This document shows, in pieces, positions 24,481 to 62,503 of a stretch of 64,000 nucleotides of DNA. Each line of letters opens with the position of its first letter. Within the stretch, counting starts at the first letter, position 1. The DNA lies in the NCBI RefSeq assembly GCF_001618865.1, contig NZ_CP015136.1, positions 3,755,001 to 3,819,000 of the forward strand. The letters are read 5' to 3'. The notes beneath the pieces were generated by a model. That model saw only the letters and a list, made by a program, of their open reading frames with translations, did not search any database and was not told where the DNA came from. The translations under genes were made by a program, and so were the position numbers. Origin of the DNA: Luteitalea pratensis (GTDB lineage: Bacteria; Acidobacteriota; Vicinamibacteria; Vicinamibacterales; Vicinamibacteraceae).

Positions 24481-24604
24481 GGTAGGGACCGCTCTCCGAG
24501 CGGTCCATCTCCGCGGCTCTCCGCAGTCGATCTCCGCGCCCACGTTGCATGTAGGATGGCCGCATATCCCGAGGAGATGGACGCCTCGGAGAGGCGTCCC
24601 TACC
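24481..24604. repeat. Palindromic GGTAGGG...CCCTACC element (copy A)
   Basis: It starts GGTAGGGACCGCTCTCCGAG and continues CGGTCCATC, which forms a GGACCGCTC-type hairpin. It ends with a second hairpin GGACGCCTCGGAGAGGCGTC followed by CCTACC, so the outer ends are complementary. The first 29 bases are identical to 61898-61926 inside dnaE2. The element overlaps the stop of the DUF423 gene. Confidence 0.85.
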
Positions 24605-27601: not shown

Positions 27602-27677
27602 GGTAGGGCCGGCTGTCCCAGCCGGCCGTGACCTCCGCAATCGCTGAACACGGGCGCCTCGGAGAGGCGCCCCTACC
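27602..27677. repeat. Palindromic GGTAGGG...CCCTACC element (copy B)
   Basis: It begins GGTAGGGCCGGCTGTCCCAG followed by CCGGCC, a perfect hairpin, and ends GGGCGCCTCGGAGAGGCGCC then CCTACC. Its left half matches in reverse complement the right end of the dnaE2 copy (61981-62007), and its right half matches the right half of copy A. Confidence 0.85.
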
Positions 27678-39534: not shown

Positions 39535-39905
39535 CAGGTAGGCTGCAGCCTGCAGCCTGCAGGCTACGAGCAAGCGAGGTGTGGGCGTCGAGCTTGCTCG
39601 ACGCGTCAACGCGGCATCGGCGGAGCATCCGGTTCCGGCTCGGTGATTCCCGACTCCCGACTCCCGACTCCCGATCCGGGTCGTCGCCGACTGTCGACCA
39701 AGGTCGACAGCTACACCACGTTGGATCTCGACAGCACCACGTTGGATGTAGGGGCCGGGCGCGTCTGACGCGTCGTCACGGGATCGGCCGACACGGCCCG
39801 ATGCCCCCGCTCGGTGACTCCCGACTCCCGACTCCCGACTCCCGAAAACGTTGGTGCCCGGAACCCGATACCCGGAACCCGATACCTGGTATCCGGTGTC
39901 GATAT
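39535..39905. repeat. Multi-family repeat block (six or more word families)
   Basis: In order: GTAGGCTGCAGCCTGCAGCC (39538-39565), palindrome GGCGTCGAGCTTGCTCGACG (39584-39604), CCCGACT tandem array (39649-39675), palindrome CTGTCGACCAAGGTCGACAG (39690-39709), ACCACGTTGGAT twice (39715 and 39737), a second CCCGACT array (39818-39847), and GGAACCCGATACC units (39859-39895). The stretch GCTCGGTGA plus the CCCGACT array occurs twice, at 39638 and 39810. No gene is seen in 39513-39965. Confidence 0.88.
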
Positions 39906-58825: not shown

Positions 58826-61800
58826 ATGTACGTCGAACTGCACACCTCCTCGGCCTTCTCCTTCCTCGACGGCGCGTCGTTGCCGGAAGCGCTCGTCGAC
58901 CAGGCCAGGACGCTCGGGTACGACACGGTGGCACTGCTCGACCGCGATGGTGTGTACGGCGCGCCACGCTTCTATCAGGCGGCACGCAAGGCGGGCCTGC
59001 GCGCGCTCGTCGGCGCCGAACTGACGATGCAGACGGGCGGCGGGCGAGGCCTGGGGGTTGGCAGGGCCGGCTCTCCCTTGGGCGCCGGAGCCTTGGCGGA
59101 GGCGGCCAGCCCGGCCCACCCCTCGGCAGTCCCGCTGCATGCGCCGCTGCTCTGGCGCCTGCCCGTGCTGGTTGCGTCAGCGCAGGGCTACCGATCGCTG
59201 TGCCGGCTGATCACGCGGATGAAGTTGGCGGCGGCGAAGGGGCAGGGCGCGCTGACGGTGCGCGATCTTGACGGACAGGTAGAGGGGCTGGTCGCCGTGG
59301 TGGGCCGTCCGATGCTCGCGGCCGACCGTCATGGCGTGGCTGGCCTGCTCGATCAGATCGTCGGCGTGTTCGGCCGTGCGCAGGTGCATGTGGAGATCCA
59401 GCGGCACCTCACGCGCGACGAGGAAGTGGACAACCGCATCCTCGTGTCGGCTGCCGAGGCGTACCGGGTGCCGATCCTCGCCACTAACGGCGTGCGTTTC
59501 GCCACACCAGAGGCACGGCCGCTCTACGACGTCCTCACCTGCATCCGGCACGGCACCACACTGGAACACGCGGGACGCCGCCTGGCGGCCAACGCCGAAC
59601 GCTACCTGAAGTCCCCGAAGCAGATGCAGGCGCTCTTCAGCGATCTGCCGCAGGCACTCGCCAACACACGTGCGCTGTCCGAGCGCCTCGACTTCACGCT
59701 CGCGAACCTGGGCTACCGGTTTCCGGATTATCCGGTTCCCGACGGCGAGACGCAGATCTCCTTCCTGCGGCGGATCACCGAGGCTGGTGCACACTGGCGT
59801 TACAGGCCGCTGACCGACAGGGCGCGCCGGCAGATCGCACGCGAACTCGATCTGATCGAGAAGCTCGATCTCGCCGGGTACTTCCTGATCGTCTGGGACC
59901 TCGTGAACTTCTGCCGGCAGCAGGACATCCTCGCGCAGGGGCGCGGGTCGGCGGCCAACAGCGCCGTCTGCTACAGCCTGGGCATCACCGCGGTGGATCC
60001 GGTGGGCATGGAATTGCTGTTCGAGCGCTTCCTCTCGGAGGAACGCGGCGAGTGGCCCGACATCGACCTGGACCTGCCGAGCGGCGACCGTCGCGAGCAG
60101 GCGATCCAGTATCTCTACACGCGCTATGGCGATCGTGGCGCGGCGATGACGGCCAACGTCATCACCTATCGTGGCCGCAGCGCGGCGCGCGAGGTGGGGA
60201 AGGTGCTTGGCTGCCCGCCGGAGATGATCGACACGCTCGCCAAGGTGATGAGCCCCTTCGAATGGCAGGATCCGAAGGACACGTTGGCTCGGCACCTGCG
60301 CGAACTCGGCGTCGATCCCGACCTGCCGCAGATTCAGCAGTTCGGTGCGTTGTGGATGCAGATGCAGGACATCCCGCGTCACCTCGGTCAGCATTCGGGG
60401 GGTATGGTGCTGTGCCAGGGACGCCTCGACGAGGTCGTGCCGCTCGAGCCGGCGAGCATGCCCGGCCGCGTCGTGGTGCAGTGGGACAAGGACGACTGCG
60501 CCGACATGGGCATCGTGAAGGTCGATCTGCTCGGGCTCGGCATGCTGGCCGTGCTGCAGGAAGCGATCACCATCGTCAACACGGCATCAACCGAGCAGAT
60601 CGATCTCGCGCACCTGCCGCCCGACGATCCGGTCGTGTACCAGATGCTGCAGGAGGCCGACACGGTCGGGCTCTTCCAGGTGGAGTCGCGCGCGCAGATG
60701 GCGACGCTGCCGCGCCTCAAGCCGACGTGCTTCTACGACCTGGTAGTGGAGGTCGCGATCATCCGGCCAGGGCCAATCGTCGGCCAGATGGTGCATCCGT
60801 ATCTCGCGCGTCGTCGCGGCGATGAGCCCGTCGAATATGCGCATCCCTCGCTCGAGCCGATCCTGAAACGGACGCTCGGCGTGCCGCTGTTCCAGGAGCA
60901 GTTGCTGCGGATGGCGATGGTGGTGGCCGGGTTCTCGGGCGGCGAAGCCGAGGAACTCCGGCGCGCCATGGGCTTCAAGCGCTCCGAGGCACGCATGCGG
61001 CAGATCGAGGTGCGCCTGCGATCGGGCATGGCCGAGCGCGGCATCACCGGGGACGCGGCCGAGACGATCCTCAGGTCGATCGCCTCGTTCGCCCTCTACG
61101 GTTTTCCGGAGTCGCACGCCGCGAGCTTTGCGCTGATCGTCTACGCGAGCGCGTACCTGAAGGCGTACTACCCGGCGGCGTTCTCCACGGCGCTGCTCAA
61201 CAACCAGCCGCTCGGCTTCTATCACCCGGCGACGCTGATCAAGGATGCGCAGCGGCATGGGGTCCGCTTCCTCTCCGTGGACGTGCAGCAGTCGATGTGG
61301 GCCTGTCACATCACGCCTGATGGCGCCGTGCGCCTCGGCTTCTGCATGGTGCAGGGCCTGCGCGAAGAGGTAGGCCGGAAACTGGAAGCCGGCGCCCCGA
61401 ACGTAGCGGCGCCGGCGCACGTAGCCTGCAGGCTGCAGGCTGCAGGCTGCGTGTTGGTGTGCCCCAAATGTGGTGCTGACGATGCGTCGATGTTCGAGAT
61501 CGACGTGCGTGCCCGCGGTCGACACATCTACTGCGGGGTCTGTGCGCACGATTGGGACGACCGGGTACCGGGTGCGGGGGACCGGGTCCCAGCAATCCAG
61601 GACAAGAGTCAGGAGGTGCCGGCGTTAGGCGTTAGGCATTCGGCGTTACGTTTTCCCTCGCTCGATGCGCTGGTGATGGCCACGGGGATCCGTCGCGACG
61701 AGTTGAACACGCTCGCGAGCCTCGGGGCCCTCAACGCCTTCGGCACCGATCGACGCGGAGCCTTGTGGAACGCCGAGCGCGTGGTGCGTCCGACCGGCGA

Positions 61801-62503
61801 CCTGTTCGCGATGCTCGATGAAGAGGCGGGTCCGGTGCGTGTGGGTAGGGACCACTCCGTTGGTAGGGACCACTCCGTTGGTAGAGACCACTCCGTTGGT
61901 AGGGACCGCTCTCCGAGCGGTCCATCACCGGCATGCACATCACACCCCTCCGAGAGGTCGAGGGCCGATGTCGCAGAGTCGGCCGGCTGGGACAGCCGGC
62001 CCTACCTACCTGAGACGAGCTCGAATGTCGATGAGCAGCCGATCGTGACGAAGGCCGACCTGGCGGGCGGCAGCCCTCTCCCCGCGATGACACCGATGGA
62101 GCGCATCGTCGCCGACTACCGCGGCAGCGGCGTGACGATCGGCGCGCACCCGATGGCGTTGCGGCGTGCGGATCTGCGCCTGCGCGGAGTGATGCGATCC
62201 GATGAACTCGGGCGGACGCGGGGCGGACGGCGCGTCCGCGTGGCCGGCGCGGTGATTACGCGGCAGCGCCCGGGCACGGCCAAGGGCATGGTGTTCCTCA
62301 CCCTCGAGGACGAAGCCGGCCTGGCCAACGTGATCATCCGGCCCGACGTGTTCGATCGACAACGGCCGCTGATCCTGCGCGCGCCGTTCCTGGTGGTGGA
62401 GGGGGTCCTGCAGCAGCAGGAAGGCGTGACGTCGGTCCGTGCCGAACGTGTCATGGCCTTTGCGGGCGATCAGCCGCGCGTGCCGTCACATGACTTCAGG
62501 TGA
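58826..62503 (+). CDS. dnaE2: Error-prone DNA polymerase III alpha subunit DnaE2, with three in-frame repeat-derived insertions
   Basis: 1225 residues; the family is usually about 1030-1090. The PHP domain starts MYVELHTSSAFSFLDGASLP. The polymerase core has AQGRGSAANSAVCYSLGITA, EERGEWPDIDLDLPSGDRRE (catalytic D412, D414), GQHSGGMVLCQGRLDEVVP and GIVKVDLLGLGMLAVLQEAI, then AMGFKRSEARMRQIEVR, and a C-terminal OB domain (RVRVAGAVITRQRPGTAKGM; VFLTLEDEAGLANVIIRPDV). Three segments do not fit the family: about 68-109, 852-942 and 1005-1072. Each is built of the same short repeats found in the intergenic regions, yet the frame stays open throughout. The second holds the cysteine pairs C879/C882 and C903/C906. 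The enzyme synthesises across lesions with ImuA and ImuB. Confidence 0.93.
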   Translation: MYVELHTSSAFSFLDGASLPEALVDQARTLGYDTVALLDRDGVYGAPRFYQAARKAGLRALVGAELTMQTGGGRGLGVGRAGSPLGAGALAEAASPAHPSAVPLHAPLLWRLPVLVASAQGYRSLCRLITRMKLAAAKGQGALTVRDLDGQVEGLVAVVGRPMLAADRHGVAGLLDQIVGVFGRAQVHVEIQRHLTRDEEVDNRILVSAAEAYRVPILATNGVRFATPEARPLYDVLTCIRHGTTLEHAGRRLAANAERYLKSPKQMQALFSDLPQALANTRALSERLDFTLANLGYRFPDYPVPDGETQISFLRRITEAGAHWRYRPLTDRARRQIARELDLIEKLDLAGYFLIVWDLVNFCRQQDILAQGRGSAANSAVCYSLGITAVDPVGMELLFERFLSEERGEWPDIDLDLPSGDRREQAIQYLYTRYGDRGAAMTANVITYRGRSAAREVGKVLGCPPEMIDTLAKVMSPFEWQDPKDTLARHLRELGVDPDLPQIQQFGALWMQMQDIPRHLGQHSGGMVLCQGRLDEVVPLEPASMPGRVVVQWDKDDCADMGIVKVDLLGLGMLAVLQEAITIVNTASTEQIDLAHLPPDDPVVYQMLQEADTVGLFQVESRAQMATLPRLKPTCFYDLVVEVAIIRPGPIVGQMVHPYLARRRGDEPVEYAHPSLEPILKRTLGVPLFQEQLLRMAMVVAGFSGGEAEELRRAMGFKRSEARMRQIEVRLRSGMAERGITGDAAETILRSIASFALYGFPESHAASFALIVYASAYLKAYYPAAFSTALLNNQPLGFYHPATLIKDAQRHGVRFLSVDVQQSMWACHITPDGAVRLGFCMVQGLREEVGRKLEAGAPNVAAPAHVACRLQAAGCVLVCPKCGADDASMFEIDVRARGRHIYCGVCAHDWDDRVPGAGDRVPAIQDKSQEVPALGVRHSALRFPSLDALVMATGIRRDELNTLASLGALNAFGTDRRGALWNAERVVRPTGDLFAMLDEEAGPVRVGRDHSVGRDHSVGRDHSVGRDRSPSGPSPACTSHPSERSRADVAESAGWDSRPYLPETSSNVDEQPIVTKADLAGGSPLPAMTPMERIVADYRGSGVTIGAHPMALRRADLRLRGVMRSDELGRTRGGRRVRVAGAVITRQRPGTAKGMVFLTLEDEAGLANVIIRPDVFDRQRPLILRAPFLVVEGVLQQQEGVTSVRAERVMAFAGDQPRVPSHDFR
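61424..61650. repeat. Repeat-derived insertion 2 in dnaE2 (TGCAGGC, GGTACCG, GGCGTTAGGC words around a zinc-ribbon-like core)
   Basis: Left arm 61424-61450 contains GCCTGCAGGCTGCAGGCTGC. The core encodes the C-x2-C / C-x2-C pattern at 61460-61543. Right arm holds CCGGGTACCGGGTGC at 61560 onward and GGCGTTAGGCGTTAGGCATT then CGGCGTTACG near 61623-61650. All three words belong to intergenic families elsewhere in the window. Confidence 0.8.
61844..62007. repeat. GGTAGGG...CCCTACC element inside dnaE2 (copy C) with 18-bp tandem repeats
   Basis: Three 18-base units beginning GGTAGGGACCACTCCGTT at 61844, 61862 and 61880 (third with one change) give the peptide VGRDHS three times. The unit at 61898 switches to the palindrome GGTAGGGACCGCTCTCCGAG, identical over 29 bases to copy A. 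The element closes with GGCTGGGACAGCCGGCC and CCTACC at 61985-62007, matching copy B in reverse complement. Confidence 0.9.

Follow-up and report, generated by a model that had tools for sequence, protein, structure and literature searches.

The three palindromic elements in the window (the whole 64,000-nucleotide stretch analysed, positions 3755001-3819000 of the 7,480,314-base single contig that is the Luteitalea pratensis genome) are very probably BIME-like head-to-head dimers of GTAG REPs, and non-autonomous elements of RAYT transposases encoded on the same chromosome. Each copy is an inverted pair of REPs composed of GGTAGGG, a perfect 9-bp stem, a TCC-type loop and a tail near ATCTCC; the window hairpins of these copies all have a 3-nt loop and lie immediately 3' of GTAG (Table 1). 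Coordinates and stems bear out the original prediction of three copies with complementary ends and two hairpins each, and its REP/BIME reading is upheld by the GTAG tag, the dispersed high-copy hairpins, the inverted dimers and the RAYT genes among the hairpins. What it had taken for a small set of hairpins turned out to be variants of one module, in which head and loop are fixed and the stem covaries. Within the window, two of the three copies lie between ORFs (copies 1 and 2, just 3' of long ORFs) and the third is intragenic; the description of the element as non-coding was wrong for this third copy, which is in frame within dnaE2.

Table 1 Hairpins and host gene in the window (window positions) and RAYT-related genes of L. 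pratensis (last four rows, contig positions)
Feature	Position	Strand	Sequence or match
Copy 1, whole	24481-24604		
Copy 1, left class A REP	24481-24506	+	GGTAGGG + GGACCGCTC-TCC-GAGCGGTCC
Copy 1, right class A REP, inverted	24579-24604	-	GGTAGGG + GGACGCCTC-TCC-GAGGCGTCC
Copy 2, whole	27602-27677		
Copy 2, left class A REP	27602-27627	+	GGCCGGCTG-TCC-CAGCCGGCC
Copy 2, right class A REP, inverted	27652-27677	-	GGGCGCCTC-TCC-GAGGCGCCC
Single class D REP	39691-39714	-	GTAG + CTGTCGACC-TT-GGTCGACAG
dnaE2-type error-prone DNA polymerase ORF, 1225 aa, hosting copy 3 in frame	58826-62503	+	NF004225
Three 18-nt tandem partial units 5' of copy 3, in-frame VGRDHS hexapeptides	61844-61897	+	GGTAGRGACCACTCCGTT
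Copy 3, dimer proper	61898-62006		
Copy 3, left class A REP	61898-61923	+	GGACCGCTC-TCC-GAGCGGTCC
Copy 3, right class A REP, inverted	61981-62006	-	GGCCGGCTG-TCC-CAGCCGGCC
Class B RAYT	1497541-1497912	+	NF047646, above cut-off
IS200-like remnant	2122613-2122866		PF01797
Class A RAYT	4000323-4000697	-	NF047646, above cut-off; open frame without stops
Class D RAYT, broken, two fragments	5981727-5982132		NF047646, below cut-off

Hairpin classes and RAYT genes in the genus

The association of the tag with a hairpin was apparent from the window onwards. In the window together with 20 evenly spaced 20-kb stretches, stems no shorter than 8 bp were present at 20 of 102 GTAGGG sites as against 3 of 224 GGGATG sites. 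In the window itself GTAG precedes a stem of this minimum length seven times, six of them in copies 1-3; four scrambled tags gave 3, 0, 6 and 1 in the same test, the tag scoring 6 being TAGG, which overlaps GTAGG. The original prediction had hinged on the element recurring beyond three sites, and it does: the class A pattern (the class of the window dimers) matched 292 times across the L. pratensis genome, compared with 3 matches for the reversed control, and inverted GTAGGG...CCCTAC pairs at a spacing of 40-200 bp occurred 159 times, compared with 70. Among the congeners, TBR-22 (G001) had 150 class A matches (control 3) and G004 had 200 (control 0), and the two congeners without a RAYT match, G002 and G003, had only 3 and 1 (controls 2 and 2). 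In the 35 other genomes of the order we found 21 class A matches together, at most 3 per genome, against 52 for the reversed control; as this is below control level, class A is restricted, within the 40 genomes searched, to the genus.

We studied REP anatomy in 1.27 Mb of L. pratensis, partly picked in REP-rich stretches, which contained 119 class A and 21 class B REPs. The class A loop in this sample is TCC in 95 of 119 REPs and TCT in 17, and the tail 3' of the hairpin is near ATCTCC. Class B has the head and loop of class A plus an extra, bulged C in the 3' arm; it numbers 60 copies in L. pratensis, 20 in G002, 3 in TBR-22 and none in G003 or G004, with no match for the reversed control in any of the five. 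Class D, in which GTAG precedes a stem close to GTCGACC/GTCGAGC with a loop of two nucleotides, was found 15 times in 400 kb; five scrambled tags yielded 0-4. REP neighbours no more than 260 bp apart in the 1.27-Mb sample were mostly head-to-head: the orientation was +- in 40 cases, ++ in 27, -+ in 4 and -- in 2. Many of the ++ neighbours belong to tandem arrays, so that REPs are found singly and in tandem besides in inverted dimers, and degenerate copies exist as well. The elements combine an unpaired GTAG 5' of the hairpin, a stem of 5-13 bp, a short loop, high copy number, dispersal and inverted dimers, all of them features by which GTAG REPs are recognised. A stem bulge of the E. coli type is absent from class A, in which 77 of 100 listed REPs are fully paired, and is present in class B.

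The hairpins are unevenly spread. We found 2 class A/B matches, one of them doubtful, in 390 kb sampled from about 2.655 to 3.450 Mb, where G+C is 0.65-0.68, compared with 0.69 and 0.685 in two stretches outside. An 8-kb sample of this REP desert had short matches only in three congeners and none in G002, and the desert looks like a large lineage-specific region awaiting colonisation.

A search with the RAYT profile NF047646, in which matches were graded against its cut-off, supplied the transposase gene whose presence the original prediction had proposed as a check: L. pratensis has two above cut-off and one broken, all among REPs. The class A RAYT is surrounded by class A REPs. On one side of it, at 3999442-4000311, 15 class A REPs stand in tandem at 56-bp spacing (one at 54), with the loop TCT in 14 and an inverted REP at the end. 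The class B RAYT is directly flanked by two class B REPs, and the broken RAYT, the only class D RAYT found in L. pratensis, is flanked by class D hairpins. No GTAG hairpin was found within the 6 kb surrounding the IS200-like remnant. Similarly, the RAYT of TBR-22 at 6430924 and that of G004 on contig C241 each lie among the class A stems of their own genome, and both species have one further RAYT, below cut-off, among class D hairpins. All four above-cut-off RAYTs of the genus (two in L. pratensis, one each in TBR-22 and G004) are thus found among a hairpin class of their genome.

The class A and class B RAYTs of L. pratensis are 52% identical, and class A-type RAYTs are 52-55% identical between species, unlike the DnaE2 proteins, which are 92% (TBR-22) and 89% (G004) identical to that of L. 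pratensis in the aligned parts. The only solved relative is 4er8, identified as E. coli TnpA-REP in PMC6006769; the HuH histidines, the WQ pair and the tyrosine of Y-x-x-x-N-P all match up in the alignment. By eye, both L. pratensis RAYTs read YLRQNP and WQ, and neither contains the class 3 TnpA-Y1 motifs Y----Q and W[TA]. Class A numbers track RAYT presence in all five genomes of the genus: 292, 150 and 200 with a RAYT, and 3 and 1, at control level, without one. G002, an 80-contig assembly, holds 20 class B REPs yet has no RAYT match, so REPs can survive the loss of a detectable RAYT or occur without one. RAYT matches with E up to 0.001 were present in 25 of the 35 other genomes of the order.

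Stem covariation, partner choice and site occupancy

Head and loop stay fixed and the stems covary. We tabulated 100 of the 292 class A REPs of L. pratensis, 100 of 179 matches in TBR-22 and, from 100 of 201 matches in G004, 98 (leaving out C14:31555 and C138:7884). Among these listed REPs, Watson-Crick pairs occupied 92.7%, 96.9% and 97.5% of the cells at the seven variable stem positions, respectively, compared with 73.7%, 72.5% and 80.4% after the 3' letters were reshuffled, and all seven variable pairs are intact in 77 of the 100 L. pratensis REPs. The commonest stems differ by species: ACCGCTC/ACGCCTC in L. pratensis, CGCGGTC/CGGGGTG in TBR-22 and CCGGCTC/CCCGTTC in G004. In the assays of PMC8266576, group 3 TnpA-REPs are reported to require GTAG, a perfect stem and particular loop bases, with the stem letters mattering less; covarying stems with a fixed head and loop fit such a mode of recognition.

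In no class A dimer that we counted did the two partners have the same stem. Identical-stem head-to-head dimers numbered 0 of 38 in the 1.27-Mb sample of L. pratensis (11.07 expected; none of 20,000 shuffles came as low), 0 of 18 among the listed REPs of TBR-22 (3.45 expected, P 0.015) and 0 of 22 among those of G004 (3.77 expected, P 0.012), all counted with pattern-matching partners only and with expectations obtained by re-pairing the same stems; the shuffles assume independent dimers, and the dimers are not independent, with four tandem copies at 832 kb and one stem combination making up 26 of the 38 in L. pratensis. A row in G004 that seemed to hold an identical-stem dimer (1 of 24) turned out to be one hairpin that has GTAG at either end. 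We considered two fixed partner classes, as in y and z REPs, and rejected them for L. pratensis, where each of the stems ACCGCTC, ACGCCTC and ACGGCTC partners both of the others (26, 2 and 1 dimers). In G004, stem position 3 is C in one partner and another base in the other in 21 of 22 dimers, and nearly all fit two classes. The idea that the dimers were copied from one master unit was also rejected, spacer interiors being mostly unrelated; the exceptions are REP-derived pieces, the tandem set at 832 kb and a spacer at 3564309 that matches elsewhere. The original prediction had described the hairpins as swapped between copies as if modules recombine: stem types do occur in varied partnerships, but the pairs obey a rule against identical stems that it did not foresee, and the recombination was its own surmise.

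Heterodimers are already known, and in PMC3733652 they are called unexplained and protection from SbcCD-type clearance is suggested. On folding, long-range pairing gained identical-stem twins 18.4 kcal/mol as against 4.7 kcal/mol for real dimers. It was preferred in 25 of 38 real dimers and in 121 of 190 randomly re-paired ones, that is, alike; we therefore rejected folding as the cause of the rule, since real and re-paired dimers do not differ in structure, and hold the clearance of perfect palindromes only as the likelier reason why partner stems differ. The rule is not universal, because in another genome, G040, several pairs lie tail-to-tail with the tags inside and have matching 5' arms, as judged from tag and 5' arm.

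REP sites are polymorphic between species. We compared 39 L. pratensis elements at 3.50-4.065 Mb with a 400-kb stretch of TBR-22; 13 have orthologous TBR-22 flanks, between which no intact REP was found in any case, in a test that scores intact GTAGGG hairpins only and lets degenerate remnants escape. One suspected remnant is the degenerate-looking GGGCAGAGAC at the copy 3 site of TBR-22. The flanks are too diverged to resolve exact insertion junctions. At the site of copy 2, G002 has no insertion, its two genes almost touching, and G004 has one REP. Of 52 G004 elements, 11 could be placed in the L. pratensis sample (4 with REPs there and 7 without), and none of the 8 placed in the TBR-22 stretch has a REP. 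Both stems differ at three of the four sites common to L. pratensis and G004; at the fourth (L. pratensis 5616482) the two species share the right stem CCGGCTC, and a single pair sets their left stems apart. In G004, each of the three window sites bears a REP or a REP-like remnant whose stems differ from those of L. pratensis. Some sites are therefore old, with stems that are largely species-specific, and in-place conversion and re-insertion alike fit this pattern. Mobilisation of the REPs by RAYT is what we infer from sequence.

REPs read in frame in DnaE2

The ORF hosting copy 3 scored 1203 bits against its profile (cut-off 939), and the REP pair is read in frame together with the partial repeats within the variable linker of DnaE2. 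This linker spans 90 aa in L. pratensis, 145 aa with other repeats in TBR-22 and 50 aa in G004, and is short in G003, the median of 77 measured linkers being 28 aa; the G004 linker contains one REP at the same junction as copy 3. In TBR-22 the same linkers are filled by other repeats, the SRLPTPD and ADLSAEA peptides, so that more than one repeat family accumulates in them. At 4055461-4055568, six 18-nt partial REPs in tandem form VGRDRS repeats in a 1053-aa frame that is ABC transporter permease-like by look; with the pattern used, this array and the one in dnaE2 are the only two of their kind in the L. pratensis sample.

DnaE2 is already listed among REP-tagged repair proteins (PMC3733652), where an adaptive idea for such genes is offered as speculation by Di Nocera et al. 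2013. In 80 related dnaE2 genes, among them that of G004 itself, we found 11 GTAG hairpins, spread over 9 genes; seven scrambled tags gave 0-6 hits. The 11 hairpins in 265 kb inside dnaE2 compare with 10 in 382 kb of flanks, a density that is high for coding DNA and no proof of targeting, the comparison being between dnaE2 and its flanks. Six of the dnaE2-carrying genomes were searched with one pattern, written for four of the six hairpins. The four fitted genomes contained 142 (G040; control 1), 196 (G043; 2), 38 (G042; 2) and 5 (G041; 1) copies, and the two whose hairpin lies outside the pattern contained 10 (G045; 2) and 0 (G044; 0). The common hairpins in the MAGs G040 and G043 are GTAG-TGTCCGGCTTYAGC, and G043 also has GTAG-GGCRCCGCTTYAGC. 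The survey, mostly of Acidobacteriota MAGs, supports the earlier observation that error-prone polymerase genes collect in-frame REPs. The excess over scrambled tags, and the 38-196 pattern hairpins in three of the six genomes, could be read as a sign that in-frame REPs are kept in DnaE2 to tune mutagenic repair. We consider this unlikely: 9 of the 11 hairpins fall 2.6-3.2 kb into the matched region, near linkers that vary freely, so tolerance suffices, and the permease-like ORF carries a REP array too.

Competing explanations and known systems

In the explanation we prefer, RAYT (TnpA-REP, HuH/Y1) transposases would spread GTAG REP dimers as non-autonomous elements, each RAYT serving its own class: A from 4.000 Mb, B from 1.4975 Mb and D, now broken, from 5.98 Mb. 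A RAYT would read the GTAG tag, a well-paired stem and the loop on single-stranded DNA; the stem letters would be of little weight to it, so that stems could drift through compensatory change. Identical inverted REPs would create a long perfect palindrome and be cleared, most likely leaving partners with different stems, and insertions would come to rest between genes or in tolerant protein linkers. The function of the REPs is most simply selfish or neutral.

The strongest competitor, which we regard as possible though distinctly less probable, is that class A REPs are relics of an old RAYT burst, immobile now and altered by mutation, gene conversion and slippage only. Tandem arrays (the 15 REPs beside the RAYT and the 18-nt partial arrays) reveal slippage, degenerate copies are present, and the 4 of 11 placeable G004 sites common with L. 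pratensis mostly have other stems. However, 77 of the 100 listed class A REPs retain all seven variable pairs, no stop codon interrupts the class A RAYT, and at none of 13 L. pratensis sites does TBR-22 have an intact REP as well. A related and more doubtful proposal is that stems are rewritten in place: old sites would stay occupied while their stems are largely replaced from the stem set of the current RAYT, with partners never identical and no need for two fixed classes. If so, the dimers would form a population that edits itself, with selection acting on nothing but the difference between partners and leaving the stem otherwise free. The right stem that L. pratensis and G004 have in common at one of their four shared sites makes this proposal slightly less likely.

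A host regulatory role for the dimers as RNA elements (terminators or mRNA stabilisers) selected at gene ends, without active transposition, is very improbable. The hairpins are strong, long ORFs end shortly before copies 1 and 2, and compensatory stem changes would preserve RNA structure as well; but what follows the hairpins is a tail near ATCTCC instead of a T-run, an Rfam search of the window at gathering scores gave no match, copy 3 is inside a coding gene and none of 13 sites has a detectable REP in TBR-22. A terminator, moreover, needs neither a fixed GTAG tag nor RAYTs among its repeats. The MITE alternative raised in the original prediction became superfluous once the REP/BIME and RAYT reading held. 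It is hardly credible that an unrelated DDE insertion sequence gave rise to the copies as its MITEs and that GGTAGGG/CCCTACC are their terminal inverted repeats: complementary ends do bound the copies and spacer length varies, yet REPs occur singly and in tandem as well, the conserved unit is a tagged hairpin and no IS end, and the same hairpins surround RAYT genes.

As RAYT-associated REP dimers, the Luteitalea elements belong to an already known kind, and the families themselves seem undescribed. We found no published description of them among the papers listed for Luteitalea or Acidobacteria in combination with REP, RAYT or TnpA-REP; the 2025 RepRanger paper tabulates other Acidobacteriota and does not name Luteitalea, and the word Luteitalea has 0 occurrences in PMC3733652, which mentions Acidobacteria once, for transposases with long terminal repeats. 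What makes them useful is that three species with separate stem sets and 0 of 78 identical-stem dimers render the heterodimer question directly testable, as two related RAYTs in one genome, beside a perfect and a bulged version of the same head-and-loop hairpin, do for what a RAYT reads. Bertels and Rainey are reported to have described in 2011 the REPINs of Pseudomonas fluorescens, pairs of like REPs in RAYT-linked dispersed populations; Luteitalea differs in that none of the 78 dimers counted has identical stems.

Like the GTAG REP families of PMC3733652, the Luteitalea REPs have a GTAG tag, short loops and alternative complementary stem letters; those families have stems mostly of 6-9 bp and head-to-head dimers mostly 20-100 bp apart, many prefer heterodimers, and insertions occur inside DNA repair genes including dnaE2. 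Unlike them, Luteitalea stems vary within one genome with head and loop fixed, and L. pratensis partners do not form two fixed classes. The palindromic repeats carried in frame inside proteins recall the Rickettsia palindromic elements, but according to PMC3733652 the R. conorii repeats are of the CGTC type and have no dedicated transposase, whereas Luteitalea has RAYTs. In the same phylum, class 3 TnpA-Y1 likewise joins a HuH transposase to high-copy hairpins, about 600 in Solibacter usitatus (PMC6006769); its motifs are Y----Q and W[TA] and its structures atypical, in contrast to the YLRQNP, WQ and GTAG-tagged hairpins of Luteitalea. The E. coli BIME likewise has inverted pairs of unlike REPs (y, z1 and z2) and a HuH transposase (PMC8266576, PMC6006769). 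The class A stem nevertheless is perfect, without the bulge that E. coli needs; class B does have a bulge, and instead of y pairing with z, three L. pratensis stem types pair in all combinations.
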